From contig CP092863.1 in the NCBI GenBank assembly GCA_030710605.1, positions 122,525,453-122,589,452 of the forward strand: 64,000 nucleotides of DNA, in the 5' to 3' direction. The translations under genes were made by a program, and so were the position numbers. A model generated the notes under the pieces. That model worked only from the letters and a program-made list of their open reading frames with translations, made no database searches and was not told where the DNA came from. Each line of letters starts with the position of its first letter. The stretch's first letter is position 1. This document shows positions 103-60,841 of the stretch, in pieces. The DNA comes from Cordylochernes scorpioides (Eukaryota; Arthropoda; Arachnida; Pseudoscorpiones; Chernetidae).

Positions 103-405
103 AAAAAGGCATATCCTGACCAGGAGAACATGTGCTTTACAGAAGGCAGAGCGCCATCTGGAGGAACAGAAATCACCAAACATTGATTTAGCCTGTTCCC
201 TGATATTTGGCCAACCCAATTTCTTGATAAATCAAGAAAAACCATCCACGAACGCGTTTCGCGCTGTTGGCGCTCGTCAGCGTGGAGTAGGCAGTACAAC
301 TGCGACCAAAAATAATCTTTGGTCCCAGAGGCTTCTTGAGAAACAAAGAAATAGGTAGTTAAGGCCAAACTTGCGTAAATACGCTTAACATTTTAAGAAA
401 TGATA
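103..405 (-). repeat. Foldback family A, single arm with ribozyme
   Basis: One arm of dispersed family A. It opens with GGCATATCCTGACC, then ACATGTGCTTTACAGAAGG, then AGCGCCATCTGG, and runs through a TTTGGCCAACC block into a hammerhead on the minus strand. The same order recurs at 5795, 6144, 7350 (reverse) and 50205. The mirror arm is missing here. The 1-102 stretch before it is AT-rich with nothing recognisable. Confidence 0.85.
245..286 (-). ncRNA. Hammerhead ribozyme, family A
   Basis: On the minus strand stem I is TCCACG paired with CGTGGA. It is followed by core CTGACGA, a stem II of GCGC/GCGC closed by CAACA, then GAAA. Stem III lies in the palindrome ACGCGT, and the predicted cleavage is after GTT. 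All conserved core residues (C3, G5, A6, G8, A9, G12, A13, A14, U16.1) are present. The tiny stem III suggests activity as a dimer, as described for Penelope-element and retrozyme hammerheads. Activity is inferred. Confidence 0.85.
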
Positions 406-1033
406 GAAAAATATCTATATATGTGTGTGGAGAGGGTAAGAGGAACCAAGTGGGTTAAAAAGTATCGCAGGCAGTGGAATCCTGCGGCAATCATAAGATG
501 GCCATTAGAAAGGGCGGACTTAAAGCCTGAAGATTACCAAGAAACGCGGGGAAGAATATTTAAATGCGTTTAATTTATTTAATGAAAATCTCAGAAGAGA
601 GATCGTTTGAATTCGAAGTAAGTAAAATTTGCATAGTCTCATAGCGGATATATGTAACTAGGGCGTTATGCAGATATGTAAATTGAATGGCTACCACCAC
701 CTCTTCACACCATTGAACTCCATTATGGATCAAAACCAAGAGAGTATGTAAACACATTCCTATGTAAATAAATAATGTCGGGATTCTTTGTTGTTGTTTT
801 TGTCTGTTTCCAAAACTTTTTTTATTAGCAGTCTCTTTAATTAAAAGGAGAGAACAAGAATAAAAATGATAAAATATTCCCTTTCTAGATGTTTTTTTTT
901 TTTCAAAGGAGTAAAAAAACATATTTTTGTTGATTTCTTATTTCCTTTTCATTAAGACAAAAGAAATGCGAATCTGAGAGAAGGAGGAAACAAAAATGTG
1001 AGACATCTGATAATCAAAGTGAGGACTGAATTA
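406..1033. other. Unassigned AT-rich stretch
   Basis: Apart from microsatellite-like TATATG and poly-T, nothing is recognisable. A 115-codon minus-strand frame (575-922) is lysine/phenylalanine-rich and low in complexity, and it matches no family I know. Confidence 0.5.
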
Positions 1034-1765
1034 TACTCATGGACAAAAAGTGGAAAGTCGTTGATGTCGCCGGTCGTCTGTTTTTTTTTAGACAGAGGCT
1101 GTTTACACTTGGTTATCTCCTGTGTTCTTCAAGAAAGGTCACTGTAATATCTTTCACAATTATTGTCTCAATCCCGATATACATGCTAAAAGGTACAATT
1201 TCCTTAAGTTTTGTCTCCATGAGTGTATATTGGTTATCTCGTGTGTCTTCAATAAAGGTCACTGTAATATCTTTCAGAGTTATTGTCTCAATCCCGATAT
1301 ACATGCTAAAGGTACAACTTCCTTAAGTTTTGTCCATGAGTGTATATTGGTTATCTCGTAGTGTCTTCAATAAAGGTCACTGTAATATATTTCAGAGTTA
1401 TTGTCTCAATCCCGATATACATGCTGAAAGGTACAACTTCCTTAAGTTTTGTCCATGAGTGTATATTGGTTATCTCGTGTGTCTTCAATAAAGGTCACTG
1501 TAATATCTTTCAGAGTTATTGTCTCAATCCTGATATACATGCTGAAAGGTACAACTTCCTTAAGTTTTGTCCATGAGTGTATATTGGTTATCTCGTGTGT
1601 CTTCAATAAAGGTCACTGTAATATCTTTCAGAGTTATTGTCTCAATCCCGATATACATGCTAAAAGGTACAACTTCCTTAAGTTTTGCCCATGAGTGTAT
1701 ATTGGTTATCTCGTGTGTCTTCAATAAAGGTCACTGTAATATCTTTCAGAGTTATTCTCTCAATA
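1034..1765 (+). repeat. 118-bp satellite array 1
   Basis: A leader of about 80 bp (CTCATGGACAAA, then GTGGAAAGTC and a GTCGCCGGTCGTCTG block) is followed by about five to six tandem 118-bp units. Each unit contains GGTCACTGTAATATC and CTCAATCCCGATATACATGC, and ends CTTAAGTTTTGTCCATGAG. The unit end is the inverted complement of the leader start, so the array looks like a short terminal-inverted-repeat element whose right part was amplified. The last unit breaks off at 1765. Small frames in it are artefacts of the repeat. Confidence 0.9.
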
Positions 1766-2559
1766 CAAATTTGTAGCATTGCGCGAGCAAAATAGGCTTG
1801 AGGAAGAGTTAACATTCGAAAGCTTTCTGAATATTTAATAAATAAACACATTGCAATTCGTCTATTACTTACAAGTACCCTTAGATTAAATAATAGATCA
1901 TAATTATTTGTTCTTCCCCCCTATTTGATACATTGTAAATAACATTGCTGATTATTGCCACTATTACTGTTATTTCTGTATATACCTTCTTCTACTCGGA
2001 GAATCTGTATAAGACCAAAAGGTCTTAAAAGAGCTGTTTGTTGTTGTTTATAAATAGATAATATGGTCTTGAAAAAGTTGAATTATAATCATATCTAAGA
2101 GGAAGTGACGTATTCTCCGCAGACAAGCTAGCCACCCGATGTATGCAAATTCCTCCAGGTCAATATATGCAAATACGGAGAGGAGCGGTTATGCAATATT
2201 TCGATCTGCCGCTAATTTGGCGATGGAATACCTAATGAATGGCAACGGAATAGTTAAATGTGAACTTCGAGGTATATTACTGATAGTTAACGGTAAATAT
2301 ATATATTAGTTAAGAGCACACGAGATTATATGTAAATAATATATATATGGTGTGTTCATATTTACATATATATAGTTATGGTTTGGGAGGATGGCATTCA
2401 TATACAAAGAGAAGCACCGCTCCCTTTGAAAATATATTGTTATAATTCATTTTTGAAGAGAGAGGTATCGCTATTGGTATATATGTTGTTGTTATAAATC
2501 GAAATGATCAATAGCTATATATGCAAATAAAACCTTAAATTATTTAATTCAAATAATAT
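1766..2559. other. Intergenic; repeat scraps
   Basis: Holds a family F scrap (about 1798-1850, with GAGGAAGAG and CGAAAGCTTTC), a LINE 3'-end scrap (about 1930-2050, sharing CGGAGAATCTGTATAAGAC with 7980-8135), and a family M terminal scrap near 2385-2440 (CACCGCTCCCTTT). No coding region is supported. Confidence 0.5.
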
Positions 2560-2780
2560 ATTCATATTTATATGAAAAATAGACACTTCGGTCCAGTTGG
2601 AGTTTTTTTATTTTCTCAACGTTTCGACAAAAATCTTTTGTCTTTGTCAGGAGAAGTAAATAAAAATAAAACATTTGGCAAGGCGTTAAAAATTGTTCTG
2701 AGGTTTGCAAGGGCGTTCTGACGTGATTTTTCGAATTTAGTACAACATCTAAACCGCGAGTCAAAAACAAATATTAAACT
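2560..2780 (-). repeat. Foldback family D, single arm
   Basis: Shares ATGAAAAATAGACACTTCGG, TTTTCTCAACGTTTCGAC and the AATAAAACATTTGGCAAGG block with the full palindrome at 25190-25450. Only one arm is present. It carries a degenerate hammerhead (2613-2655). Confidence 0.75.
2613..2655 (-). ncRNA. Degenerate hammerhead, family D (G8 lost)
   Basis: On the minus strand stem I is TTCTC/GAGAA, stem II is GAC/GTC with a long loop, then GAAA and cleavage site GTT. All match the two intact D copies at 25249 and 25356. The core reads CTGACAA, so the catalytic G8 is A with no compensating change at C3. It is probably inactive. Confidence 0.65.
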
Positions 2781-2904
2781 TGTTAAAGACTATGATCTTG
2801 GAAATAAAATTATAATCAAAATAAATAAATAAAGTAATATACTAATAATAATCACAAAGATTACATATGAATTTATAAATTTTTAACTAATAATATAGCA
2901 ATAT

Positions 2905-3103
2905 ATTCAAAGAGACAAAGGTCGTCTCTCCCGTCAAAATAGACGTCAAAACTAGACGCCATCTATTGACCGTCACCGCAAACTAGCGGTCTCGGGTCGA
3001 TGACAAAGCCACAACACCAGCTTTGGCAAACTAGATGGCGGGAGAGGCGACCTTTGTCTCTTTGAATCAATATCCTCCCGGCAAAATTTGCATCTATAGC
3101 AAT
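2905..3103. repeat. Family C deletion derivative (foldback)
   Basis: Left arm holds GTCTCTCCCGTCAAAATAGA, CGCCATCTATTGACCG, CTAGCGGT and GACAAAGCCACAACACC. It turns directly into a short inverted arm GGGAGAGGCGACC and then CCTCCCGGCAAAATTTGC. The hammerhead-bearing centre seen at 33680 and 35830 is missing. GACAAAGGTC and GACCTTTGTC at the borders close the foldback. Confidence 0.75.
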
Positions 3104-3759: not shown

Positions 3760-4125
3760 AATTTGCTTTAACTCCGGCTTTGCCTGTCCCAAGCCCGGAT
3801 GAAAAAGGAGGAGGGGAAGCAGTAACAAGCTCACTAAAAAACCTGGGCTCAGATGGTCCGGCTGATAGTACCCTGTAACGGCTCCAGGGATACAGGATGA
3901 GCAGCGTTTGTACTCCATGTTAGAAGCAGCTGCACATGGCGTCTGTTCCTCATGTCAGAGGCGGCCATTTCTTTTGGAGCTAAGTCGGCCTACCACTGAG
4001 TAGTGCTCCCAGTCTTAATGACAAAGACATTCTACTTCACCCAGTCATGATGGTTGTCAAGCTCTACAAGTATGATACCATAATATGGTTGAGTGGAGAT
4101 AAGAAAGAAGAAAAGAAGATAATTT
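3760..4125 (+). repeat. Dispersed repeat J
   Basis: Contains AAGCCCGGATGAAAAAGG, a TAGTACCCTGTAACGG block, a TACTCCATGTTAGAAGC block, CCCAGTCATGATGGTTGTC, and a tail GTTGAGTGGAGATAAG followed by AAGAAG repeats. A second copy lies inverted at 31535-31960. The tail is homologous to the 71-bp satellite at 18216-19575. A purine-rich A/G tail suggests a retroposed element (SINE or LINE 3' end), but no promoter boxes or protein could be recognised. Confidence 0.65.
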
Positions 4126-4245: not shown

Positions 4246-4445
4246 AATATAAAACACTAGAGCTATAATATACTTGAAACAAACGCCTACCAATAGATAT
4301 TTAACTCTATTGTACTCTATCAAATTGATAAGATATTAGAGACTATTTTATCTACCAATTTTGCCAACGACAATTTATATAAGAAAATATGAAAAAATAA
4401 TAGAAAAAATAAAAAATAAGTGGGTCAGGTGTTGATATTAAAAAC

Positions 4446-4580
4446 AAAGTAGGCCTTATCTGACCAAGAGCACATGTGCTTTTCAGAAGGCAGAGCGCCA
4501 TCTGGTTTTAAAAGAGTTTTAAATGGCGCTCTGCCATCTAAAAAGCACATGTGCTCTTGGACAGGATATGCCTTTTTTTA
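4446..4580. repeat. Family A deletion foldback without ribozyme
   Basis: The two outer A arms (GCACATGTGCTTTTCAGAAG with GCGCCATCTGG, and its mirror) meet back to back. The 300-bp interior and its hammerhead are gone. Confidence 0.75.
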
Positions 4581-4589
4581 AATAAGAAA

Positions 4590-4860: not shown

Positions 4861-5312
4861 TTACATTCAGATACTTTTTTTTAAATTTTATTGTACTTAC
4901 ACATACAAACCCAAAACTTAGAACATTTAAAAACCATCCTCTTTATGATGAATGGAGTCACACACAACAGCCATCATAAATGGAAACAATCAATTTCCAT
5001 ATCTCATTAAATCCTATCAATCCTTCAATTTGACGATGTTCGAAAAAGAAAACTGATTAATAAAGAAACATTTATTTAAAGCCGAGAAAACCAAACCCGA
5101 AAAAAAAAGGTGCTCGTAATTACGTTGGCAAATGGTATGTCGAGATGGAGGCACATAATTTATTTTGGTTTTAATTAACTTTACTTAATTATACCCCCCA
5201 TATGGGATATAGAGAGAGGGAGGGAGAAGATTGCTTTCTTCCCTTTTACCAACTTACTCACACTTAGCTATCCTAGCTATTACCTATCTGCTACCTCCTT
5301 ATATATATATAT
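4861..5312. other. Unassigned stretch
   Basis: Mixed AT-rich sequence with no repeat family, RNA or coding signal that I can recognise. Confidence 0.4.
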
Positions 5313-5781
5313 TAAGAAAAAGGCATCTCCTTATCGTGCAACTGAAAATTGCTGATGGCTTGCGCCATCTATCGGAATAAATATCAACTACTCTCGTTGA
5401 TTTTTAATTATTCCAGAATTGGCCAAATATCCCCATTCTTGATTAATCAAGAAAAGCTAACCACAGACGCGTTTCGGGCTGTTGACCCTCATCAGCGTGG
5501 TGCAAGCTGTACCTCAACGACCAAAAATTGGTTATTAAGGCATCCTGAAAAATCATGAAATGGGTAGTTAAGGCCAGAATTCTGGCCAATTAGGACAGTT
5601 TAATTAGGTCAATTAGGCCAATTCTGGAATAAATAAAAATCAACGAGAATAGTTGATATTTATTCCGATAGATGGCGCAAGTCATCAGCAACTTTCATTT
5701 GCACGATAAGGAGATGCCTTTTTCTTAATTTATGCACCTTATCCCAGTACAATATCACATATGTACTATTTTTTCATATAA
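5313..5781. repeat. Foldback family B, both arms with ribozyme
   Basis: Both arms are present. The left arm starts AAAAAGGCATCTCCTTATCG, and its mirror ends CGATAAGGAGATGCC near 5720. A conserved tail follows, TTATGCACCTTATCCCAG and CAATATCACATATGTAC. The centre holds a hammerhead on the minus strand. The tail recurs at 30350-30398 and, reversed, at 55291, so it belongs to the element. Confidence 0.85.
5461..5500 (-). ncRNA. Hammerhead ribozyme, family B
   Basis: Minus strand: stem I CCACG with TGTGG (one G-T wobble), core CTGATGA, stem II GGGT/GCCC with a CAACA-type loop and one wobble, then GAAA, palindromic ACGCGT, and cleavage after GTC. All core residues are intact. Same design as 30159, 55472 and 60802. 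Confidence 0.85.
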
Positions 5782-5940
5782 ATATATATATATATTAAAA
5801 ATGGCATATCCTGACCAGGAGCACATGTGCTTTACAGAAGGCAGAGCGCCATCTGGTGGAACAGAAATCAACTAAACATTGATTTAGCCTGTTCCCTGAT
5901 ATTTGGCCAACTCAATTTCTTGATAAATCAAGAAAAGCCA

Positions 5941-5982
5941 TCCACGAACGCGTTTCGCGCTTTTGAGGCTCGTCAGCGTGGA
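5941..5982 (-). ncRNA. Hammerhead ribozyme, family A
   Basis: Minus strand: stem I TCCACG/CGTGGA, core CTGACGA, GAAA, ACGCGT and cleavage after GTT are intact. Stem II is weakened because GCCTC replaces GCGCC, so pairing with GCGC is only partial. Probably decaying. Confidence 0.75.
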
Positions 5983-6295
5983 GTAGGCTGAACCATTGCG
6001 ACCAAAAAAGATTTTTTGATCCCAATGGCTTCCTGAAAAACCAAGAAATGGGTATTTAAGGCCAAATTTGCGTAAATACGCTTAGCACATTAAAAAACGA
6101 AAGAAAAAATAAAAGATAAAAAGATCAGGTGTTGAAATCAATATTAAAAATGGCATATCCTGACCAGGAGCACATGTGCTTTACAGAAGGCAGAGCGCCA
6201 TCTGGTGGAACAGAAATCAACTAAACATTGATTTAGCCTGTTCCCTGATATTTGGCCAACCCAATTTCTTGATAAATCAAGAAAATACAATATAA

Positions 6296-6337
6296 CGCGG
6301 CTGATGATTGTAAAACGAAAATTAAAATTATACCGCG
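6296..6337 (+). ncRNA. Possible hammerhead-like motif in 289-bp unit
   Basis: CGCGG, CTGATGA, a nine-base spacer, GAAA, an AATT-rich segment, then TATA and CCGCG. Stem I (CGCGG/CCGCG) is perfect, and an ATA cleavage site sits in the right place. Stem II hardly pairs and stem III is poor, so catalysis is doubtful. Repeats at 6585-6626 and 6874-6915. Confidence 0.35.
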
Positions 6338-6457
6338 AATGTTTCTTTTAAAAATCGAAATTTATTTTCAAAGAGAAATAGCGACATTTCTAACTTTGAG
6401 GATGAGGTATGGAAAGGTGAAACATGAAGAGTAATGGAGAACGGAAAAATAAAAAGT

Positions 6458-6530
6458 GTCCAGGGGCGGGAATCGAACCCACACCCTTCTGCTTACCGGG
6501 CAGGTGCCTTGTCCACTCGGCTACCCTGGA
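6458..6530 (-). tRNA. tRNA-like gene in repeat unit (copy 1)
   Basis: Minus strand folds as a cloverleaf. Acceptor TCCAGGG pairs with CCCTGGA. The D arm is GCC/GGC with GAGTGGACAA. The T arm is GTGGG/CCCGC with loop TTCGATT. The variable loop is five bases. The anticodon loop reads CCGGTAA, giving anticodon GGT (Thr) but with C where U33 is expected, and the first anticodon-stem pair is C-A. It lies in a tandem repeat, so it is more likely a mobile tRNA-derived promoter than a translation tRNA. Confidence 0.6.
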
Positions 6531-6746
6531 CGTATTTTTCCGTTCATAACTTATATTTAAAGTAACATTTAAAATACAATATAACGCGGCTGATGATTGT
6601 AAAACGAAAATTAAAATTATACCGCGAATGTTTCTTTTAAAAATCGAAATTTATTTTCAAAGAGAAATAGCGACATTTCTAACTTTGAGGATGAGGTATG
6701 GAAAGGTGAAACATGAAGAGTAATGGAGAACGGAAAAATAAAAAGT

Positions 6747-6819
6747 GTCCAGGGGCGGGAATCGAACCCACACCCTTCTGCTTACCGGGCAGGTGCCTTG
6801 TCCACTCGGCTACCCTGGA
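6747..6819 (-). tRNA. tRNA-like gene in repeat unit (copy 2)
   Basis: Identical to copy 1 and displaced by exactly 289 bp. Same unusual C33 and the same intact T arm and acceptor. Confidence 0.6.
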
Positions 6820-7065
6820 CGTATTTTTCCGTTCATAACTTATATTTAAAGTAACATTTAAAATACAATATAACGCGGCTGATGATTGTAAAACGAAAAT
6901 TAAAATTATACCGCGAATTTTTATTTTTCCGTTCTCCATTACTCTTCATGTTTCACCTTTCCATACCTCATCCTCAAAGTTAGAAATGTCGCTATTTCTC
7001 TTTGAAAATAAATTTCGATTTTTAAAAGAAACATTCGCGGTATAATTTTAAATCAAGAAAAACCA

Positions 7066-7105
7066 TCCAGGAACGCGTTTCGCGCTTTTGGCGCTCGTCA
7101 GCGTG
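7066..7105 (-). ncRNA. Hammerhead ribozyme remnant, family A
   Basis: Core CTGACGA, stem II GCGC/GCGC with CAAAA loop, GAAA, ACGCGT and GTT are perfect. Stem I is damaged, with TCACG facing CCTGGA. Just downstream (7166-7201, plus strand) is a truncated inverted partner that lacks CTGAC. Confidence 0.7.
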
Positions 7106-7515
7106 AAGTAGGCTGAACCATTGCGACCAAAAAATATTTTTTGATCCCAATGGCTTCCTGAAAAACCGCGAGCGCCAAAAGCGCGAAACGCGTTCGTGGA
7201 TGGCTTTTCTTGATTTATCAAGAAATTGGGTTGGCCAAATATCAGGGAACAGGCTAAATCAATGTTTAGTTGATTTCTGTTCCACCAGATGGCGCTCTGC
7301 CTTCTGTAAAGCACATGTGCTCCTGGTCAGGATATGCCATTTTTAATATTGATTTCAATACCGGATCTTTTTATCTTTTATTTTTTCTTTCGTTTTTTAA
7401 TGTGCTAAGCGTATTTACGCAAATTTGGCCTTAAATACCCATTTCTTGGTTTTTCAGGAAGCCATTGGGATCAAAAAATATTTTTTGGTCGCAATGGTTC
7501 AGCCTACTCCACGCT

Positions 7516-7935
7516 GAAATTTCAGAGAAAATGGGTGAACTCACTTCATAGGCACCTCTCCCTTTTAAAAATGCATTAAAATAATGTATTTTGGTTCATC
7601 ATACAAAGCATAAAAGTCGTTATGAAGAATAAGCCATATCACCAGTTTTAAAAAATTTCAGACAAAGTGAGTGCAATCACTTTACAACGTGAAGTTGCGG
7701 GATTCATGTACACGAAGAGGCACCGCTCCCTTTAAAAAATGAATAAAAACAATGTATTTTGGTTCATCGCCATTATAAAATTGAGAAAAAAAGCCAACAA
7801 CCTGTATACCATGGTTATAGCAATGTCCCTGATCAATACAAGGGCAACTTTGATTTCAAAATATCCTAGGAGAAGAGTTATAAAATCGGTCGAATTTGAT
7901 ATATTTTTAAACGTTTCGTACTAGAATGATGAAAC
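7516..7935. repeat. Family M element
   Basis: Contains GGCACCTCTCCCTTTTAAAA, ATGTATTTTGGTTCATC, a CACCAGTTTTAAAA block, a second inverted-type end GGCACCGCTCCCTTT, and ACCTGTATACCATGGTT. The same modules occur at 39640-39905. A decayed hammerhead sits near 7806-7850 on the minus strand: TTGATCA replaces CTGATGA, and GAAAC is lost. Confidence 0.6.
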
Positions 7936-14369: not shown

Positions 14370-14403
14370 AAGGCATATATTGGATCAAAATATCATTTAT
14401 TTT

Positions 14404-14447
14404 TACCAATATTTCAGTTGGCTGAACGCCGCCAACATTTATCAAGA
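14404..14447 (-). ncRNA. Hammerhead-like RNA, family E (U3/A8)
   Basis: Minus strand: stem I TATC with GGTA (one wobble), core TTGATAA, stem II TGTTGGC-type pairing with GCCAAC, GAAA, then ATAT and a TU cleavage position before GGTA. The core is CTGATGA with C3 and G8 both changed, to U and A, which could still pair. An extra GCG lengthens the stem II loop. Confidence 0.5.
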
Positions 14448-14523
14448 TATTATAACATTTCAAAGTGTGTCAACAATTATGTGGCGCTGAGTTTGTTGTT
14501 GACACACATTAAATATGTTATAA

Positions 14524-14566
14524 TACCTTGATAAAGGTTGGCGTTCAGCCAACTGAAATATTGGTA
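14524..14566 (+). ncRNA. Hammerhead-like RNA, family E (U3/A8)
   Basis: Stem I TACC/GGTA, core TTGATAA, stem II AGGTTGGC with GCCAACT (one bulged G) closed by GTTCA, then GAAA and palindromic ATAT. The UH site is followed directly by GGTA. The geometry is that of a hammerhead with a U3-A8 pair replacing C3-G8. Whether it cleaves is unknown. Confidence 0.55.
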
Positions 14567-14650
14567 AAAATAAATGATATTTTTATCCAATATATGTCTT
14601 TTTAATTAAAGATTGTTATAACTATTGAACAATTCAGAACTATTAAATCT

Positions 14651-14926: not shown

Positions 14927-15196
14927 GTGAAAAAATAGTACAAATGTGTTATTGTACTGTGATAAGGTGCATAAATTATGAAAAAGGCATCTCCTTATCG
15001 TGCAACTGAAAGTTGCTGATGGCTTGCGCCATCTATCGGAATAAATATAAACTATTCTCGTTGATTTCTAATTATTCCAGAATTGGCCAAATACCCATTC
15101 TTGATCAACGAGAATAGTTGATATTTATTCCGATAGATGGCGCAAGCCATCAGCAAATTTCAGTTGCACGATAAGGAGATGCCTTTTTCTTAATTA
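14927..15196. repeat. Foldback family B, both arms, centre deleted
   Basis: Left and right arms are complete (GGCATCTCCTTATCG ... CGATAAGGAGATGCC). The centre jumps from ATACCCATTCTTGAT straight to CAACGAGAATAGTTG, removing the hammerhead. Confidence 0.8.
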
Positions 15197-15274
15197 ATAT
15201 AAGTGTAAAAGCAAGGAAGAATTTATATTATGAATATATGGAAATTTTTCTGGAAAAGTAATTTGGTCCATAAA

Positions 15275-24905: not shown

Positions 24906-25248
24906 GTAGAAGGAAATTTACATATTTAATAGGTTTGGCTAATATCTAAAATGCGTTAAATATATATTCTTAAAAACTGATTTATTTATACCAATTAAAA
25001 CACATGACCGAACTGAAAAAGAACATATATATATTCCGAAAGCTCATCCTTTATACTTGAAAAATAAAAATAAATAAATTGCGTATTTTATCGATGTCCT
25101 CAAATATTTTTTTAAAAAGCACTAAAATCTAAAGTTACATTTTTAATTAATACTTTATTTTCATTAGTATTCAAATAAATACACAGAATCATTCATATTT
25201 ACTCGTATATGAAAAATAGACACCTCGGGCAGTTTTTAGGTTTTTATT

Positions 25249-25291
25249 TTCTCAACGTTTCGACAAAAATCTTATGTCTTCATCAGGAGAA
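25249..25291 (-). ncRNA. Hammerhead ribozyme, family D
   Basis: Minus strand: stem I TTCTC/GAGAA, core CTGATGA, stem II AGAC/GTC with an ATAAGATTTTT loop, then GAAA, ACGT palindrome and cleavage after GTT. Core intact. Confidence 0.8.
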
Positions 25292-25355
25292 GTAAATAAA
25301 AATAAAGCATTTGGCAAGGCGTTAAAAATTGCCAAATTGCTTTATTTTTATTTAT

Positions 25356-25398
25356 TTCTCCTGACGAAGACATAAGATTTTTGTCGAAACGTTGAGAA
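25356..25398 (+). ncRNA. Hammerhead ribozyme, family D
   Basis: Plus-strand partner of the previous entry. Stem I TTCTC/GAGAA, core CTGACGA (variable position 7 differs), GAC/GTC stem II, GAAA, ACGT, GTT. Two inverted ribozymes 65 nt apart means that either transcript strand carries one. Confidence 0.8.
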
Positions 25399-25450
25399 AA
25401 TAAAAACCACAAAACTGGCCGAAGTATCTATTTTTCATATAAATATGAAT

Positions 25451-28400: not shown

Positions 28401-30014
28401 TATGATCCTGTAATGCGTTATTTATAATATCGTATCAAAAAATTAATTTTATTTTGAATGTCAATGAGTTTTATGAAATAAAATGATATAAAAAGTATAT
28501 AAATAAATACTAAAAGTTTCAATAGTAAAAAATCAATTTTAATCAAAAATATTATTTAGCATAAAATAATCATTACTTAGTTTTTCTCATAATGTTATAT
28601 TTTACCTATTGAATGTTGTTATTTAACATTAAATGTGGTTTTATAATTTTAAAAATCGAAATTCTACTGTGCAATGTCGTTAAACAAAAAGAATTTGCTA
28701 ATAAATCTTAAAATATTCGCTATTAAAGTTTAGAAAAGTGTCTTATATAGAGAGGTATAAAGTCTATAAATGCACTAAAAGAATTTTTTTTCAATATCAA
28801 AATTGTCCTTATCACTATCAAAAATGTACTTATTTAAATCAAACAATTTCATTTTTAATCGATATTTTCTATTTTATTTGAATTTTGAACTTTAATATGC
28901 TTTATTTTCGATTTTTTAATTGAGACGCACCTTTATTTTAAATGAAATTAGTTTATTTTATTAGTTTTTTATTTTGTTATATAAGTTTATTTTTTATTTT
29001 TATATATAAAAAGTATATTTATTATTTCAATATAAGTACATTTTTTATTCTAATAAGGACATATTTTATTTGTGTGTATATTTTAAAGGTATTTCACTCT
29101 TAAAAACCACGTTTGAAAGTTTGAAACTATATACATATATACCTTCATTGATGATTATTTTGATATCAAATTAATGAATTCCTTTCGTATCCATCACATT
29201 TAAATAAATTTGTTTTTTTACATCCCAAAACATATTCATTGCCCATGTAACAAGACCCTAAATAGAATTACCACAAAAAATAATTATTTTCTTACAAACT
29301 ATAGAAAAAATAAAAATGTGGAGAAAAGGGTTGAAAAAAATCGAATATTAATGAGCTTTAAAAAAAAAAGCCAAAAGACGAATAGTGGTGCTGATTCTAC
29401 TTTAGATTTTTTTATAGTTCTTTCTTTAAAGACTATGCAGTCGAAACTATTAAAGGTTTTTTTTTTTTTAAAGAGGTCAACTTTTTTTCTAATTTCTTGT
29501 TTTGACTTTGCAAGTGTTCGAAATGAAACCCAATAAAATTTTTTTTTCCATGTTGAACTCATTAAACAAGAAAGATTTTCGAATTGAGTAACGTAAATTT
29601 TCTACTAAAACTTATTTTGAATAATATCTTATGATGCATTAGCGCGCGCCATCTGTTATCGGAAATATAAACTATTTTTAACGCGTATGATTTTTTTATC
29701 AATTTATATATTTAAGAAAAAAGGTGATGGTTTTTTTTTATATTTTTTTGTGTGTAATTTATATATTTAAATAAAAAAATAATAAATATAGGAATATCAA
29801 TCAATTATTTTATTTCCAAAGCGCTATATCACGCAAGGGATACTTGCGTCAAACAAGGAGAAAAGTTTATTTACATAAGTTATTTACCTTATTCAGCACA
29901 TGAAAATATTAGAGATCCAGATTTTGTAGAAAGTTTAGAATGTATTTACAAACTATAAATATAACTAAATGTATATATACAAAATATTGGAATATATAAA
30001 AACATAACTATATA
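25451..30014. other. AT-rich desert
   Basis: Over 4.5 kb of very AT-rich sequence without a supported gene. Assignable pieces are repeat K (27058-27247) and an H arm (about 29633-29700). Frames such as 29210-29536 are lysine/phenylalanine-rich and overlap on both strands, so they are not credible. Confidence 0.6.
27058..27247 (+). repeat. Repeat K
   Basis: ATAGTATTTATTAATTTT, TTAACAGAG, TTCCCTCGTGGCTTATC, TCCTGAAGTTTTTGTC and TTTTCCACGTGGCAATA match the other K copies. Confidence 0.7.
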
Positions 30015-30398
30015 TTAAGGAAAAAGGCATCTCCTTATCGTGCAACTGAAAGTTGCTGATGATTTGCGCCATCTATCGGAATAAATATAAACTATTCTCG
30101 TTGATTTCTAATTATTCCAGAATTGGCCAAATACCCGTTCTTGATTAATCAGCTTGCACCACGCTGATGAGGGCCAATAGCCCGAAACGCGTCCGTGTTT
30201 AGCTTTTCTTGATTAATCAAGAATGGGTATTTGGCCATTTCTGGAATAATTAGAAATCAACGAGAATAGTTGATATTTATTCCGATAGATGGCGCAAGCC
30301 ATCAGCAACTTTCAGTTGCACGATAAGGAGATGCCTTTTTTCTTAATTTATGCACCTTATCCCAGTACAATATCACATTTGTACTATTTTTTCATAAC
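30015..30398. repeat. Foldback family B, both arms with ribozyme
   Basis: Arms GGCATCTCCTTATCG and CGATAAGGAGATGCC. The centre holds a plus-strand hammerhead. The conserved tail TTATGCACCTTATCCCAG and ATTTGTACTATTTTTTC follows. Confidence 0.85.
30159..30198 (+). ncRNA. Hammerhead ribozyme, family B
   Basis: Stem I CACG/CGTG (outermost pair lost), core CTGATGA, stem II GGGC/GCCC closed by CAATA, GAAA, ACGCGT, cleavage after GTC. Core intact. Confidence 0.85.

Positions 30399-33646: not shown

Positions 33647-33679
<33 letters not shown>
31961..33679. other. Intergenic; scraps of A and M
   Basis: About 32238-32355 is a family A outer arm (GGCATATCCTGACC, GAGCGCCATCTAG, TTTGGCCAACCC). About 33205-33245 is an M end (AAAGGGAGAGGTG). 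A 78-codon frame at 32909 starts at TTG, is unmatched, and is not called. An (AT)n run is at 33639-33680. Confidence 0.45.
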
Positions 33680-33680
<1 letters not shown>

Positions 33681-33813
33681 GGAAGCAATGGTCGCCTCTC
33701 CCGTCAAAATAAACGTCAGAATCTGACGCCATCCATTGACCGTCGCCGCAACTAGCGGCATCGGGTCGGTGACAAAGCCACAACACCAACTTTGGCAAAC
33801 TGATAAGCGTCCA

Positions 33814-33857
33814 CCTAGAGACCATGGTTTCGGGCTAATGGCCCTCGTCAGTCTAGG
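33814..33857 (-). ncRNA. Hammerhead ribozyme, family C
   Basis: Minus strand: stem I CCTAGA/TCTAGG, core CTGACGA, stem II GGGC/GCCC closed by CATTA, GAAA, palindrome ACCATGGT, cleavage after GTC. All core residues present; 44 nt. Confidence 0.9.
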
Positions 33858-33938
33858 GCGGACTTTATTCCATGAGATCCACACGGGATCTAATGGAATC
33901 CTCACAATCTACCAAAGAGGTGTGGATCTCATGGAATA

Positions 33939-35596
33939 CACACACACACAAGCCTTTTTATTGGGGCATCCAGCCCTATACATGATTCCCCTCTACAGGA
34001 TTTAGCAAAGGAAGATATTTCTAAAGTAAAAACTAGAATACAGGAAGTAATAAGGAAAAAGAAAAGCGAGAAGAAAGAAAAAAAAAATAAATAAAACCAT
34101 ATATACAAAAAATAAACATACAGAGCAAAAGGAACCATACATGATTAAAAATTTAAATTAAAGTACCAATGTTTAAAATATGTCAAGGTTAGGATATCAT
34201 TGAGAGGGCTAGTGTTGAATCAGCCGCATTCAATCTTCGTTTTCTTCCTCCAAGCAAACCACGACATTCGGCGCTTCCATTGTTCTCCAACGGACATTGA
34301 CTGCGGCCTTGTAGAATTTATATAAACCGAGGGAGAGACCCTGATCAACCATCAGTGTGTTCATCCAGCTGCAAATTTGTTGGCAGTCAGGTTGAGACCA
34401 GGGTAAGTCACCCAAAATTTCTTTCCTCTGTTTCTCTAAGCAAGAGCATCCAAATATTATATGCATAATTTCGTCTTGGATTCTGTTTTTACACAGATCG
34501 CAAGTTAGAGTCAAATCAATTTTCCAGCGATTTGAACGATTTTCTGGGAAGATCGTCCAAAGGAGTCTCAGTTGTGCAAAAATTCTTTTAATTGCTAGAG
34601 GAATAGTTGTGAATAAATATCGTTCTGCTGTTATTGAATTTTTTAGGTATTTGAAGTGACTGTAATGTGAAGTATTTAGGATTTTCGCCATGTCGTTTTG
34701 GATGCTTTGTTCGGTTGCTATTCGAATAATACCAGGGATTTCAGTCATTATTGCAGCGTAATCCGGACAACCCTTCAGGAACGAAAAACCGTTTGAGTCT
34801 AAAATGGTTGACAGGTTTTCGACAAAGGTTAAACCAGCCCTTTGATTGCTGTGTAATGTCCAGAGGTGTGACAAACATGCCCGGGGCAACCTACTCTCTT
34901 CCATTTTCATAATCCTCACCCAAAATCTCAGGACCTGTTTAATAATGATAACTTCCTGTGATACTCGTCCACACTCCATTCTTAGCATAAAGCCCGGAGT
35001 ATACTTTGGTAAATTTAGGTAGCGTCTTAAGAAAATATTCTGAACCTGATCAACTACCTTTACTTGGTTGAGTGCCCAGCAGGGTGCGGCGTATAGCATG
35101 TGAGGTAAGACCGTCGAATCAAGTAATCTCAATGCCGCATTTATAGAGTTCATCTTGGATTTTGTCAGAACCTGCCACACAGCGCCAATTGCTGCCAGGG
35201 CTTTGCCCTTGTAGTGTGACGCTACCTTGTTTAGTGAATGTGCACTTGTAAGCGGATATCCCAAGTATAGATATTTCGTAGTAACAGACAGTTGCCTCTC
35301 ACCCCAGAACCATTTGTCATTTTGTGCTAATCGACCGCCGTTTCTGAAAACTACAATTTTTGACTTATTTTCATTCAGGGTTAATAAATTTGTTTCAAAA
35401 TATTTTCTTAGCATATTGATTTTTATTTGAAGGTTATTTTTGGATTCTCCAATCAAGACAATATCATCTGCGTATAGTAGAATATGAACATATCCATAAT
35501 TTGGGAGATATATTCCCGGTAAATCTGAATTATTGTAGAGACCGATTAAATCATTTATAAAAAGTATAAATAAATAAGGTGACATCGGCTCCCCTT
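33939..35596 (-). mobile_element. 5'-truncated LINE (non-LTR retrotransposon)
   Basis: 1658-bp insertion on the minus strand, flanked by a 13-bp target duplication. It starts abruptly inside the reverse transcriptase. It ends with a 3' UTR, AATAAAAAGGC and a TGTGTG tail adjoining the duplicated target. 5' truncation and tail are the hallmarks of target-primed reverse transcription. Confidence 0.85.
34230..35596 (-). pseudogene. LINE reverse transcriptase, C-terminal part
   Basis: An open frame of about 455 codons (ATG at 35585, but the frame is open to the truncation point) covers the second half of a non-LTR reverse transcriptase. It has SPYLFILFINDL near the start, then the catalytic YADDIVLIGE about 40 residues in, followed by thumb and connection regions. 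Near the end is a zinc-knuckle-like C-x2-C ... H-x5-C cluster (CDLCKNRIQDEIMHIIFGC). The N-terminal endonuclease and fingers domain are missing, so it cannot move on its own. The frame has no internal stop, implying a fairly recent insertion. This is LINE type, not Penelope type, so it is not the source of the flanking ribozyme element. Confidence 0.85.
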
Positions 35597-35617
35597 ATCT
35601 CATGGAATAAAGTTCGC

Positions 35618-35661
35618 CCTAGACTGACGAGGGCCATTAGCCCGAAACCATGGTCTCTAGG
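35618..35661 (+). ncRNA. Hammerhead ribozyme, family C
   Basis: Mirror copy of 33814-33857, identical in all elements: CCTAGA/TCTAGG, CTGACGA, GGGC/GCCC, GAAA, ACCATGGT, GTC. Predicted cleavage between 35655 and 35656. Confidence 0.9.
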
Positions 35662-35835
35662 TGGACGCTTATCAGTTTGCCAAAGTTGGTGTTGTGGCTT
35701 TGTCACCGACCCGATGCCGCTAGTTGCGGCGACGGTCAATGGATGGCGTCAGATTCTGACGTTTATTTTGAGGGGAGAGGCGACCATTGCTTCCATGGAT
35801 TAATTTCCTCCCGGCAAATTTTCCATCTATATATA

Positions 35836-37140: not shown

Positions 37141-37164
37141 TATATCTGAAATCAGAATATAAAC

Positions 37165-37395: not shown

Positions 37396-37436
37396 AAAGG
37401 AGATTTAAATTGTTTCATATATATATATATATAAAG

Positions 37437-37702
37437 AAAAAAGAAATTTCCTGATCGTGAAACTAAAAGTAGCTGATGGCTTGCGCCATCTATCGGAATA
37501 AATATCAACTTATCGTTGATTTTTTTTAATTATTCCAGAATTGGCCAAATACCGTTTATTGATTAATCAACGATTAGTTTATATTTATTCCGATAGATGG
37601 CGCAAGCCATCAGCAACTTTTAGTTGCATAATCAGGAAATGCCTTTTTCTTAATTTATCTACCTGATCCAAGTACAAATTCACTTTTGTACTGTTTTTCA
37701 TA
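37437..37702. repeat. Foldback family B, both arms, centre deleted
   Basis: Outer arms differ from other B copies in parallel (TTTCCTGATCGTG and GCATAATCAGGAAATGCC), so the two arms evolved together. It lacks the ribozyme. Confidence 0.75.
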
Positions 37703-39639: not shown

Positions 39640-39905
39640 CGCCTCTACATATCTATGTTATGGTAAATTCGACCGATTTCAAAACCACTATCGTAAGATG
39701 TTATAAAATCGAAGCCGTCCCTGTACTGATGAGGGCCAAAAGCCTGAAACCATGGTATACAGGTTGTTGACTTTTTGTTTGAATTTGTCAAAACTGGTGT
39801 TGTGGTTCATTCTTTATCACCATCAGAAACCAAAACGCATTGTTTTAATGCATTTTAACTGGAAAGGTGCCCCTTTGGATACATTATTGGTTAATGTAGT
39901 TTATA
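39640..39905 (+). repeat. Family M element with ribozyme
   Basis: ATTCGACCGATTTCAAAACC, ATGTTATAAAATCGAAGCC, a hammerhead, then AAACTGGTGTTGTGG, TTGTTTTAATGCATTTTAA and AAAGGTGCCCCTTT. AACTGGTGTTGTGG also occurs in the C arm, linking M and C. Confidence 0.7.
39720..39763 (+). ncRNA. Hammerhead ribozyme, family M
   Basis: Stem I CCTGTA/TACAGG, core CTGATGA, stem II GGGCC with GCCT (one wobble) around AAAA, GAAA, palindrome ACCATGGT, cleavage after GTA. All core residues present; predicted cleavage between 39757 and 39758. Confidence 0.88.
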
Positions 39906-41711: not shown

Positions 41712-41792
41712 GACTCCCCCGTACCGAAGAGTCGACAGGATAGTGGACGCCAAGGTACAAGTAAGCAAATAGACCACTGTCTGTACAGAAAG

Positions 41793-49005: not shown

Positions 49006-50204
49006 AATATTTTTATATATTCCCAATAATTTGCCTATAGAAATATACATTATTTATTCATTATGACATAATTTACCGAAAAAAATAAATATTCATTTAT
49101 TAATTCATTTATTAAAATATTAAGTTCAGTTAAGTATTTAAGACAAAAAAATGTAATTTAACATAATTACAACTGGTAATAGATTAAATCCATTAATTAT
49201 TTTTTACCTGTGTTTAAATACATTTTAATCGTGTTTCACAATTTAATAAATTTGTATCTTAATACAATATCCAATATCTGTTTTTAAAAAAATAACTTGA
49301 TGATTAAAATTATTTGTATAATTTGCAAAAACAAATTTTAGTTTTTTTTTTCATTATTTAATTTTTAAAGAGATATATATAAAATTGTACGTAACAATTT
49401 ACATTTTAAAATAAATTTATTCTATTTCAATAATTTTTAAAAAGCGTTTAAAATGAATATGATCCTTTTTTTTTTAATATTCAAAATGTTTTGAGATATT
49501 TAAAATGATAATTGAGTTTAAAATAATCTTACATATATTTTTCTTTATAAATGATAATTTGTTTTTAATTTGACAAATAATCAACCCCCCTGTGAGCTTC
49601 ATTAGAATATTTAATTTAATTAACGGATTTTTCACAAATATAAACATGGTTTTCAGAAATATAAATAATATTTGCAAAACTATGAATATACAGTTTGCGG
49701 AAAAAGTGTATACCGAAATATAAATAATAGAAAAATATATATTTATGTTTTATTTGATAAACCTTTTAAAATTTTCAATTAAAACATTTGACATCATGAT
49801 ACTTTTCATTATTTTCTAGATTTCAAAATTTATTTGTTTGGATTATATTAAAATATAGAGATAAAAGCGGTACAGTTTGGCTTCAATTTCAGACGACATA
49901 GTTGCCAAAAAAAAACGCGTGTTTTTTATCAATACCATTACCAACCTATACTGTAAAGTTCTGAATACAAAATTTAAAATATTATTAAAGAATTAACATC
50001 TATCCAATCACTACCTAAAAAATAGAAATTCATACTCCCATTTCTTACCTATCAAATCTGCAGAAGCTTTCTCGATCTTTCAGGCTATAACATGCCCTTC
50101 AACAACGTAGACCTAGAATTATTACTTCTAACCAATTATAAGACGCCGCGAATTTAAATACAAGTTTATATATATATACCCCTGAAAAAAACGAAAGAAA
50201 ACAA
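49006..50204. other. Unassigned AT-rich stretch
   Basis: Very AT-rich. No repeat family, RNA gene or credible frame. Confidence 0.5.
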
Positions 50205-50520
50205 TAAAAGATAAAAAGATCAGGTGTTGAAATCAAAAATAAAAATGGCATATCCTGACCAGGAGCACATGTGCTTTACGGAAGGCAGAGCGCCATCTGG
50301 TGGAACAGAAATGAACTAAACATAGATTTAGCCTGTTCCCTGATATTTAGCCAACCCAATTTCTGATGGCTTTTCTTGATTTATACAAAAATTGGGTTGG
50401 CCAAATATCAGGGAAGAGGCTAAATCAATGTTTAGTTGATTTCTGTTCCACCAGATGGCGCTCTGCCTTCTGTAAAACACATGTGCTCCTGGTCAGGATA
50501 TGCCATTTTTATTTTTTATA
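50205..50520. repeat. Family A foldback, centre deleted
   Basis: Both arms with AGCGCCATCTGGTGG (50289-50303) and its mirror CCACCAGATGGCGCT (50448-50462). They meet at CCAATTTCTGATGGCTTTTC. The ribozyme is removed. Confidence 0.8.
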
Positions 50521-54429: not shown

Positions 54430-54570
54430 TACATATAAAATGAAAGGATTTAAAAGTACGAATGTTTCTTTTATGCATAATACAAACTTCTACTGTCCTT
54501 ACTGCGATGAAGTTTGTATTATGTATAAAAGAAACATTCGTGCTTTTAAATCCTTTCATTTTATATGATA
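54430..54570. repeat. Family H foldback, centre deleted
   Basis: ATGAAAGGATTTAAAAG, ACGAATGTTTCTTTTATGC, then ACTGTCCTTACTGCGATG and the mirror GCATAAAAGAAACATTCG. No permuted ribozyme core. Confidence 0.65.
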
Positions 54571-55290: not shown

Positions 55291-55658
55291 TGTGAAAAAT
55301 AGCACAAATGTAACATTGTACTGGGATAAGGTGCATAAATTAGAAAAAGGCATCTCCTTATCGTGCAACTGAAAGTTGCTGATGGCTGGCGCCATCTATC
55401 GGAATAAATATCAACTATTCTCGTTGATTTTTAATTATTCCAGAATTGGCCAAATAGCAGTACAGCTTGCACCACGCTGATGAGGGCCAACAGCCCGAAA
55501 CGCGTCCGTGGTTAGCTTTTCTTGATTAATCAAGAATGGGTATTTGGCCAATTCTGGAATAATTAAATATCAACGAGAATAGTTGATATTTATTCCGATA
55601 GATGGCGCCAGCCATCAGCAACTTTCAGTTGCACGATAAGGAGATGCCTTTTTCTTAA
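55291..55658. repeat. Foldback family B, both arms with ribozyme
   Basis: Here the conserved tail (TGTGAAAAATAGCAC, AACATTGTACTGGGATAAGG) is on the left. Arms GGCATCTCCTTATCG and mirror. Both arms share the private change GATGGCTGGCGCC / GGCGCCAGCCATC, showing arm-to-arm copying. Confidence 0.85.
55472..55511 (+). ncRNA. Hammerhead ribozyme, family B
   Basis: Stem I CCACG/CGTGG, core CTGATGA, stem II GGGC/GCCC closed by CAACA, GAAA, ACGCGT, cleavage after GTC between 55506 and 55507. The most perfect B copy. Confidence 0.9.
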
Positions 55659-55684
55659 TATATATATATATACAATTGAAACTT

Positions 55685-57854: not shown

Positions 57855-58160
57855 ACACCCACAAGGTACAGGCCATGATAATCATGGTTGATAGAAGTTG
57901 GCAACTGCCTTTTACTCTAAGTACACCACATGTCTATACATGTGAAAAGAAGTTCGACATCTGCACTTAAAAATGTATCAGAGCCATGTTAGGTTATACT
58001 TACACTCGCTGGTGAGGTTGGACTTTTTCAAGAATCGAGAGCCATTGGTGCATTTTGTTTTTAAATTAGGAAAAAAATACCCAATGCGGGATTCGAACCT
58101 GGGTTGTAGCGATTGAAAACCAACGGTTTAGAGATCATCCTTCCACTGATCTGATTCATA
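57855..58160 (-). repeat. SINE S with tRNA-Glu-like head
   Basis: Minus strand starts with a tRNA-like head (GATCAGTGGAAGGATG as A-box region, TTTTCAA loop giving TTC, CCAGGTTCGAATCCCGC as T-arm with B-box, then CATTGGGTA). The body is shared with the other copies. Total about 300 bp. The D arm and anticodon stem are imperfect, as expected for an old SINE. Confidence 0.75.
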
Positions 58161-58182
58161 CATTTTGTCCCGTACATATGTC

Positions 58183-58305
58183 TAAAGAGACAAAAGTAGC
58201 CTCTCCCGTCAAAATAGACGTCAAAACTAGACGCCATCTATTGTCTCTTTAGATCAATGTCCTCTCTTCAGACCAATGTCCAAAATTTCCATCTATAGTA
58301 CATAT
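58183..58305. repeat. Family C deletion derivative
   Basis: AAAGAGACAAAAGTAGCC, CTCTCCCGTCAAAATAGACG, GACGCCATCTATTG then GTCTCTTTAGATCAATG. It lacks the rest of the arm and the ribozyme. Confidence 0.65.
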
Positions 58306-59262: not shown

Positions 59263-59542
59263 ATTCGTGGTGTACAATACTTTTTATGTCGAAGAATGAC
59301 ACAAGTAAAACCTTGGTATTGACATGAAAATACGAGATTTCTTCGTTCTTTTAGCTTATCTTTTCCTTTCCACTCCTTTGAATTTGGCCGCTGCCTTGTT
59401 CACTACGTTCTCCTGATCTGTCACCAATAGAAAACGTCTTGGTCAATGGTTGTCTAGCGACTAGCTTGTCACTACACGTCATTCACTACTGTCGAGGAAC
59501 AGTGACATCGTGTTAAAGCTACTTGGTAAACTCTATCTGTAC

Positions 59543-59753
59543 TTGTGAAAAAATAGTACAAATGTAATATTGTACTGGGATAAGGTGCATAAATTAAGAA
59601 AAAGGCATCTACTTATCGTGCAACTGAAAGTTGCTGATGGCTTGCGCCATCTATCGGAATAAATGTCAACGAGAATAGTTGATATTTATTCCGATAGATG
59701 GCGCAAGCCATCAGCAACTTTAAATTGCACGATAAGTAGATGCCTTTTTCTTA
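59543..59753. repeat. Foldback family B, both arms, centre deleted
   Basis: Arms read GGCATCTACTTATCG and CGATAAGTAGATGCC. The same private change appears in both arms relative to CTCC/GGAG. It lacks the ribozyme. Confidence 0.8.
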
Positions 59754-60054
59754 AAATAATGTATCTGTACTTGTTATCCAATCTCTGTTTGGACACCCGC
59801 TTCGTTGACCAATTAAAGGAACTAACTGGCTTGACGGTCACCGAGATGTTACATTGAGCTTAAGACAGAGATGGCTGGTGTCATGTTTGGGATGTAATAT
59901 GTACAGTACAACGTTCAATCGCGAATATAATTATTTATCTATCTCTGTTTAACCCAATGCCCAGTCGTATAAGTTATATTATTGTTGACCCAGATAGTTC
60001 TTTTGAATTCTCATTATCCAAACCTCAAACTCTCTTAAAACCTTTATAAAATAA

Positions 60055-60355
60055 ATGAAGCTTCCAGGGTTAAGTTTTTTGTGCAACTTTTTATTATTTT
60101 CAAGCTTTCGGACTTGTCAGTTCTTCAACAGGATTATCACGTTAACAACTTAATAATAAATATTATATTTTATATACACATTATTATTTACATATTTTAA
60201 ATACTTATATTATTGAGAGAAAAATGTATTACATTATTTCTGTTTGAAATAAAGGTTCCTCCCTGATTTATATTATCATAAAATAAATAAAGCTTCCAGG
60301 GTTAAGTTTCTTGTGCAACTTTTTATTTTCAAGCTTTCGGACTTGTCAGTCTTAA
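60055..60355 (-). repeat. Foldback family G, two arms of one orientation
   Basis: AGCTTCCAGGGTTAAGTTT, TTGTGCAACTTTTTATT, CAAGCTTTCGGACTTGTCAG occurs at 60058-60125 and 60287-60350. The first continues TTCTTCAACAGG, giving CTGTTGA...GAAAG on the minus strand with A6 replaced by U, as in the 37-kb G copy. Confidence 0.6.
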
Positions 60356-60480
60356 AACTTTAATCACTTGTTATTCATAGTATAATATATCACAGTCCAG
60401 TAAATATCATTTTATGAAAAAGGTATCTCCTTATCGTGCAACAGAAAGTTGCTGATGGCTTGCACCATCTATCGGAATAA

Positions 60481-60711
60481 TTATATATATAATAATAAAA
60501 TCGGAAAAATAAAACAGTGCAACAACTGTCCTGGTGTGGAACTAACATCTGCTCACATATTCTCATGCCCAGCAATGGCCGCAGCCTTGCAGAAAATTGA
60601 CTTAGACCCAGAGCAGCAGCTTTACACACCCAAGATAGTGGATATTGCTGCTGCTGTGATAGAGATGCATGGAGACATCTGAGGCTCTTCTTTGGACACG
60701 ACAACAACAAA
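60481..60711 (+). pseudogene. 5'-truncated LINE, C-terminal fragment
   Basis: Encodes CNNCPGVELTSAHIFSCP (a C-x2-C...H...C motif), AMAAALQKIDLDPEQQ and IVDIAAAVIEMHGDI, stop, then GAGGCTCTTCTTTGGACACG and an ACAACAACAA tail. The 10-bp target duplication is clean, so this is a recent insertion into B. Confidence 0.75.
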
Positions 60712-60801
60712 ATCGGAATAAATATCAACTATTCTCGTTGAATTTTAATTATCCCAGAATTAGACAAAAATACCCATTCTTGATTAATCAAGAAAAGCTA
60801 A

Positions 60802-60841
60802 CCACTTACTCGTTTCGGGCTGTTGGCCCTCATCAGCGTGG
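60802..60841 (-). ncRNA. Hammerhead ribozyme, family B variant
   Basis: Minus strand: stem I CCACG with AGTGG, core CTGATGA, stem II GGGC/GCCC closed by CAACA, GAAA. The stem III palindrome is altered to ACGAGT, and the site is GTA. The core is intact, but the innermost stem I pair and the stem III symmetry are lost. Confidence 0.75.

Follow-up and report, generated by a model that had tools for sequence, protein, structure and literature searches.

Head-to-head retrozyme arrays with Penelope-type insertion ends in the pseudoscorpion Cordylochernes scorpioides

Animal non-long terminal repeat (non-LTR) retrozymes have been described as units of 170-400 nt with GC below 50%, which carry a type I hammerhead ribozyme (HHR) with a weak palindromic helix III, form tandem multimers, give highly self-paired RNA and co-exist with Penelope-like elements (PLEs) (PMC7229834). 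HHRs common to both, tandem copies and joint occurrence led to the proposal that PLEs are their partners (PMC7229834; PMC7761336); a 2020 review names them only as likely candidates, on the grounds that both carry type I HHRs and that they co-occur (PMC7761336). PLEs encode a reverse transcriptase (RT) and a GIY-YIG endonuclease. In Adineta Pen2a, inverted pseudo-LTRs (pLTRs) come with one tail and 8-10-bp duplications (PMC3846280), and the purified PLE protein of Anolis, PAc, is reported to cut AT-rich DNA on both strands and to extend each of them, the tail being delimited by its two RT start sites (PMC11167929). Here we analyse 64,000 nt of the pseudoscorpion Cordylochernes scorpioides (the whole stretch is called the window; contig CP092863.1, positions 122,525,453 to 122,589,452, of the 2.62-Gb assembly GCA_030710605.1 in 24 contigs), in which inverted-repeat insertions carry HHRs. 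We consider it probable that the HHR-bearing foldbacks of the families we call A, B and C are non-autonomous animal retrozyme insertions made by PLE machinery.

These insertions share with animal retrozymes each of the retrozyme features given at the outset and differ from them in arrangement: the accessible parts of that report describe head-to-tail multimers, contain no head-to-head one-tail arrays and leave the machinery open (PMC7229834). With PLEs they share head-to-head repeats, one tail (about 26-40 nt in the described elements), AT-rich targets, short duplications (8-12 bp in those elements) and a hammerhead upstream of the start sites (PMC3846280; PMC11167929, as far as their available sections go); unlike PLEs, the retrozymes have no recognised protein, and the end of one PLE of this genome (L056) shares no clear sequence with them. 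Their HHRs resemble HHR_Amex1/2 of newt and axolotl, which have a helix III of one or two pairs, a palindromic tetraloop and likely dimers, and differ in sequence and host; inverted arrays are not described in the sections available for those ribozymes (PMC7229834). Each component has been described before (retrozymes, the hammerheads and tails of PLEs, inverted pLTRs); searches of open-licence papers brought up no account of retrozyme arrays that are head-to-head and carry a tail.

Matches to the family C arm recur in the genome at 319-bp steps on one strand, and the repeat step is 338 bp in family A and 350 bp in family B. The family C monomer has 319 nt and 49% GC; its HHR core begins at 147, with cleavage predicted after 178. 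Folded as a circle, it has a minimum free energy of -125.8, compared with -89.7 (s.d. 5.3) in 100 mononucleotide shuffles (z -6.8), and the antisense circle is also low, at -107.7. The units show what is expected of retrozymes: a type I HHR in each, a length of 170-400 nt in tandem multimers, and highly self-paired RNA. Frames of 115-131 aa span C units in both orientations, three of which were tried and had no Pfam match. No RT was seen in the units, which are too short for an open reading frame (ORF) with RT plus GIY-YIG.

The exact pattern CTGAYGAGSGCCAWHAGCSCGAAAC, which covers the HHRs of families A, B and C and not those of D, M or the PLEs, occurs 43,765 times in the genome (21,831 + 21,934), or 16.7 cores per Mb, and seven times in the window; the reversed-pattern control gave none. 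The axolotl genome is about 32 Gb in size. Reported HHR numbers are approximately 5000 in a mussel, more than 6000 in a coral and 126,247 in the axolotl (PMC7229834), next to which this genome looks rich in hammerheads, in a comparison that is rough, search methods differing between studies.

The genome search with the family C arm gave at least 45 matches (40 of 935 candidates scored) at 21 loci. Two arms are present at 19 of these, and in all 19 they lie head to head, a minus arm followed by a plus arm; 18 are independent, the window copy and L039 being one event in a segmental duplication. Arms run from a fraction of one unit to eight units plus part (L040b), with monomers head-to-tail. Among 100 listed rows of exact cores, inspected by eye, close pairs of one family on opposite strands comprised seven head-to-head and no tail-to-tail; the neighbours in plus-then-minus order (1433708/1434158 and 7020238/7021084) are in each case of different families. 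The window has ten complete head-to-head insertions, four with an HHR and six with the same 3' ends and shorter arms (Table 1), and many foldbacks of the HHR families have arms too short for a ribozyme. Families A and B are known from the window plus seven small loci (L060-L064, L066, L067).

The outer ends of the C arms coincide with unit position 319 (CTTCCAT) or miss it by a few nt, and mostly lie against (TA)n. A tail, which in C arrays corresponds to unit 1-34 and across families measures 34-50 nt, is added at usually one outer end. Exactly one tail is found in 17 of the 19 C arrays with both ends readable, a count that includes both the window and L039 and leaves out L017 (right end non-canonical), L046b (cut by the locus end) and the one-armed L051 and L053. 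The exceptions are L040a, with two tails, and L040b, with none. These two are neighbours: the two-tailed one, a small C array at L040:816-1153, lies 1.4 kb from the tail-less one. In the window, too, each of the ten complete insertions (families A, B, C and the C-related C') has exactly one tail, the C insertion sitting in both counts; outside the window count are 101-411, 5792-7517, 14654-14857, 15286-15398, 25206-25441, 39651-39900, 58150-58260 and 60412-60891, where an end or arm is missing or was not assessed. By eye, six of the ten have 7-13-bp duplications and three lie in (TA)n, with none seen at 37438. Where C arrays lie in targets other than (TA)n, short duplications are seen, examples being TTGTAGAT (L043), ATATAAAAG (L044) and AATCATATAT (L048); none was seen at the array ends of L045 and L047.

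The retrozymes therefore carry the PLE-type insertion signature of inverted arms, one tail, AT-rich target and short duplications, more weakly in a less selected set of loci described below. The initial annotation of the window had placed the HHRs in inverted-repeat elements akin to animal retrozymes and PLEs, which stands, and had taken the foldback element as the ribozyme carrier, which does not: the repeat unit is the 319/338/350-bp retrozyme, and the foldback is the way in which two cDNA arms were inserted. It had also regarded the inverted packaging as merely unusual. That packaging is present, and it is the informative part because it bears the PLE tail signature.

The genome has PLEs with the same ends. 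A PLE RT met in L001 has at least 113 matches scored of 36,991 candidates, some of them tandem and some head-to-head. Four PLE loci (L056-L059, from two PLE families) were chosen for being head-to-head, so that their orientation is no test; all four have exactly one tail, of 26-27 nt, and 10-12-bp duplications. In a domain scan that covered L056, L058 and L059, RVT_1 and GIY-YIG were above the Pfam cut-off in L058 (narrowly, 22.7 vs 22.6) and L059, and GIY-YIG of L056 was just under it (22.1). Hammerhead-like cores begin 92-100 nt ahead of the PLE 3' end in L057-L059, that of PLE family 1 being non-canonical (CTGTAGA), and the centre of L056 is close to a perfect palindrome. A separate observation is a PLE RT fragment (RVT_1) at L049:1340-2509, about 400 bp from a family C array and beside a frame that looks like GIY-YIG by eye and has no Pfam match. 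Pfam gave nothing in four short frames of the loci.

Where one arm stops on its inner side is mostly independent of where the other does. In 17 C arrays (all but L017, L027, L039 and the window composite), none has inner ends symmetric within 5 nt. Only three of the 34 ends fall within 15 nt of the predicted HHR cleavage site, against 3.3 expected; since they do not cluster there, the template presumably had no frequent end at that site, as would hold for a circle or an uncut multimer. Both inner ends are known in eight window arrays of families A and B, and in six of these they differ by at least 22 nt. Monomer identity is higher within than between arrays in 17 of 18 groups (1.000 vs 0.982 in L031 and L052, 1.000 vs 0.980 in L042), an excess that could owe something to later conversion within arrays. 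Most of the array pattern is explained by two priming events that used a single RNA source.

The family C insertion of the window is a composite in which a 5'-truncated long interspersed element (LINE) fragment lies between the retrozyme arms. Its RT frame (34230-35594) matches several C. scorpioides proteins in part, with 83-100% identity over the matching parts. Read on the minus strand, the LINE 3' end with (TG)n is joined via a 17-nt antisense snippet to unit position 75, and the other junction is a break within the LINE RT, at the opposite retrozyme arm. The second copy, L039, is 127 kb away and has one monomer more; its flanks are 97-99% identical to those of the window composite, which identifies a segmental duplication. 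A LINE with a hammerhead 3' end of its own was considered and rejected, the LINE being captured and the second copy arising from the duplication.

Twelve places in the window had been annotated as HHRs of one exact geometry. A pattern check found the CTGANGA...GAAA core at all twelve. Strict geometry, which asks for 5 bp in stem I, no fewer than 4 bp in stem II, a palindromic stem III with an A-U closing pair and a UH site, holds for six of them (280, 5495, 33851, 35624, 39726 and 55477), with no match in 200 dinucleotide-preserving shuffles of the window; cores 30164, 5976, 7101 and 60836 are near-intact, and the two family M cores (25286 and 25361), with an additional A ahead of stem II, fail the test. 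We aligned 12 rows, 11 of them distinct, from families A, B, C and D and two diverged relatives (L041 and L055), all picked beforehand as hammerhead-like, and scored ten pairs. In the distinct rows 94.5% of cells are paired and 18 are double-change cells, compared with 5.6 in shuffles (0/500 as high for either measure); in slid controls pairing falls to 15-40%. Further pair types are no more numerous in the alignment than chance would give (213/500 shuffles). Stems I and II covary between families, and the annotated pairing of stems despite differing sequence is supported.

The window HHRs are real hammerheads for which ribozyme activity is predicted, and the cleavage sites proposed earlier, 55506/55507 and 35655/35656, are consistent with HHR geometry. 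The proposal of at least five independent foldback families was rejected: A and B are homologous, as are C and (distantly) D, D is a lone copy with no foldback, and M is doubtful. In a check with the Rfam hammerhead models, none of the window HHRs reached the gathering score (52), the five HH9 matches scoring 20.7-26.5 bits (E 0.024-1.8). A covariance model built from our alignment matches its ten window members, by construction, and a partial copy at 7166-7201, and does not match family M or anything in the four PLE loci. The window HHRs have a helix III made up of A-U with CGCG, or else of two pairs with a tetraloop, a kind described for amphibian retrozymes (PMC7229834); with so short a helix, dimers may be needed for action.

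What has to be explained is a set of units and arrays with head-to-head order, a common start, usually a single tail, target duplications and mostly independent inner ends, together with the same ends in GIY-YIG PLEs. We infer a circular template, ribozyme activity, a mode of joining and a PLE protein acting in trans, and consider the following course probable. A genomic array would be transcribed and its transcript cut by the HHRs into 319/338/350-nt units, which would then circularise, as in the known retrozyme pathway. The PLE RT/GIY-YIG protein would nick both strands of an AT-rich target, and each nicked strand would serve as primer for copying the retrozyme RNA into cDNA, with a start at either of two internal sites that lie close together; one start would leave a tail and the other none. 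The enzyme may run through several units, giving tandem monomers; the two cDNAs would stop independently and be joined, so that the insert is head-to-head and flanked by target duplications of 7-13 bp. A more specific form of this, double target-primed rolling reverse transcription, we propose tentatively and give slightly under an even chance: both cDNAs, one primed by each strand that the PLE has nicked, would be copied from a single RNA circle made by the ribozyme, one of them starting in a loop and the other past a stem.

Foldback DNA transposons, or elements like miniature inverted-repeat transposable elements (MITEs), that had captured hammerheads and whose inverted repeats were cut and pasted by a transposase would also fit the short target duplications and the inverted arms, which measure tens to 200 bp. 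Two equivalent inverted repeats with fixed ends were not found: usually one end only has a tail, all 17 C arrays compared have unequal inner ends, the arms hold a fraction of one to eight monomers, and the duplications measure 7-13 bp. We reject this origin as highly improbable. Mobilisation by a LINE of the kind captured in the C composite, where LINE RNA lies between retrozyme arms (33924-35596), is very improbable as well, given that the LINE ends in (TG)n and not at the retrozyme site, that the tail signature has been described as unique to PLEs, and that both composites go back to a single event, copied by segmental duplication.

Two further explanations keep to PLEs or PLE-like events. 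The units could be solo or tandem pLTR remnants of autonomous PLEs, that is truncated cDNAs, and not independent retrozymes; in this genome hammerhead-like cores do lie 92-100 nt ahead of PLE 3' ends (L057-L059), and PLEs and units agree in their insertion ends. Against this, the 319/338/350-bp multimers have no recognised gene between units, the retrozyme HHR model matches nothing in the four PLE loci, and no PLE with A, B or C pLTRs was seen, in a search that was not exhaustive; we find remnants quite unlikely. Snap-back self-priming of a single cDNA, as proposed for Adineta Penelope, would yield the head-to-head order and the palindromes known there (PMC3846280), and the insertion at 59537-59757 is mirror-symmetric, that at 4386-4582 symmetric within 5 nt and the centre of PLE L056 a near-perfect palindrome. 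Self-priming predicts equal inner coordinates, though, and these are seen in none of the 17 C arrays and in two of the eight window A/B arrays; nor would it by itself give arms of different monomer number or a single tail. As the general source of the arrays it is unlikely.

Several observations weigh against retrozyme insertion by PLE machinery with two priming events. The 21 C loci are the top matches to a window copy, and two of them, L051 and L053, are one-armed. Less selected are the regions round the first nine listed core rows (eight regions, six independent, L060-L062 being one duplication), which gave four head-to-head loci and two with one arm within 1.2 kb; matches below 82% identity were left out in the comparison of L066 and L067, where a diverged second arm could be missed. 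One tail is present in two of those four head-to-head loci (L063 and L065) and none in L060 and L064, which may be older copies that lost it. The two symmetric window arrays (59537 and 4386) fit snap-back. At the C joints 11 of 17 overlap by at least 1 nt, a count without a chance control, so that microhomology joining is not established. The within-array identity excess is below 0.5 points in L039, L045, L048 and the window, and in L049 identity is lower within than between arrays. The L056 PLE 3' end has only short, chance-level matches to the retrozymes and picks out no PLE partner. A stem common to PLE and retrozyme ends is only suggestive: its limits were set once the data were known, the individual cases give p 0.05-0.12, and such a stem is present at 39 of 319 pseudo-ends of the C unit as well. 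PAc insertion in vitro was reported to be independent of HHR cleavage (PMC11167929).

If double target-primed copying is right, retrozymes would be to PLEs what short interspersed elements (SINEs) are to LINEs, carrying only a circle-making ribozyme and the PLE two-start-site module, and would have reached more than 43,000 ribozyme copies in one arachnid genome. The inverted one-tail arrays point to the machinery that may copy retrozymes and predict a defined biochemical test. They also record the end of insertion, with two cDNAs and mostly independent stops, a stage that the PAc report, in its accessible text, leaves for validation (PMC11167929).

Table 1 Hammerhead cores and insertions of the HHR families in the window.
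Feature	Position	Strand	Details
HHR cores	280, 5495, 5976, 7101, 25286, 33851, 60836	-
HHR cores	25361, 30164, 35624, 39726, 55477	+
Family B single arm	101..411	-	HHR 244-285(-)
C-related (C') head-to-head, without HHR	2896..3100		tail right, duplication ATAGCAATATAT
Family B head-to-head, without HHR	4386..4582		tail left
Family A head-to-head insertion	5307..5787		arm 5311-5545(-) with HHR 5459-5500(-), arm 5612-5729(+), tail to 5778(+)
Family B composite	5792..7517		one full minus unit plus part units; HHRs 5940-5981(-), 7065-7106(-), partial 7166-7201(+)
Family A head-to-head, without HHR	14928..15198		tail left
Family M palindrome	25206..25441		two PLE-like degenerate HHR cores (25286-, 25361+)
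Family A head-to-head insertion	30010..30397		arm 30014-30151(-), arm 30150-30347(+), tail 30341-~30397(+), HHR 30159-30200(+)
Family C left arm (unit 75-319)	33679..33923	-	HHR 33813-33856; outer end CTTCCAT against (TA)n, no tail
Captured 5'-truncated LINE fragment	33924..35596	-	RT ORF 34230-35594 (RVT_1), 3' end AATAAA...(TG)n, between retrozyme arms
Family C right arm (unit 120-319)	35597..35796	+	HHR 35619-35662
34-nt tail (unit 1-34)	35797..35830	+	sole tail of the family C window insertion
Family A head-to-head, without HHR	37438..37702		tail right
Family D single copy	39651..39900 (limits approximate)	+	HHR 39721-39764
Family B head-to-head, without HHR	50184..50515		tail left, duplication ATATATACCCCT
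Family A head-to-head insertion	55292..55662		tail 55295-55342(-), arm 55342-55456(-), arm 55460-55659(+), HHR 55472-55513(+)
Family A head-to-head, without HHR	59537..59757		tail left, duplication TATCTGTACTTGT; arms mirror-symmetric about 7-nt centre
Family A single arm	60412..60891	-	HHR 60800-60841; other sequence interrupts between 60484 and 60712

Family M (25206-25441 and 2569-2673) has a hammerhead-like core whose additional A ahead of stem II is shared with PLE family 2 (L059), and may therefore be a PLE remnant. Family B arms enclose a 289-bp tandem unit at 6286-7051, which has an intact-looking tRNA (6458-6530 and 6747-6819) and a partial copy in inverted orientation, and which is possibly a second case of captured RNA or repeat. 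Sub-threshold Rfam microRNA matches (MIR391, MIR5998, MIR1919, mir-219 and others) at 4464-4560, 14995-15174, 37461-37625, 50323-50428 and 59615-59733 fall inside head-to-head retrozyme insertions and so are probably not microRNA genes.

Further inverted repeats with arms of 57-103 bp (14356-14614, 30697-30855, 31161-31408, 37139-37396, 39188-39400 and 54432-54567; 25 of 54 inverted pairs were listed) have no match to families A, B, C, D or M. Two copies of one repeat contain short twister-like ribozymes of type P1, at 31896-31950 (-, 39.3 bits) and 3765-3819 (+, 37.1 bits; gathering score 67.2). They are perhaps the truncated twister reported at the 5' ends of RTE retrotransposons (PMC7761336). 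Ty3/gypsy-like frames at 41682-46182 encode RT, RNase H and integrase zinc domains (Pfam). Frames at 35902-37015 contain helix-turn-helix (HTH) domains (Pfam HTH matches only), which we take to resemble a Tc1/mariner-type transposase.

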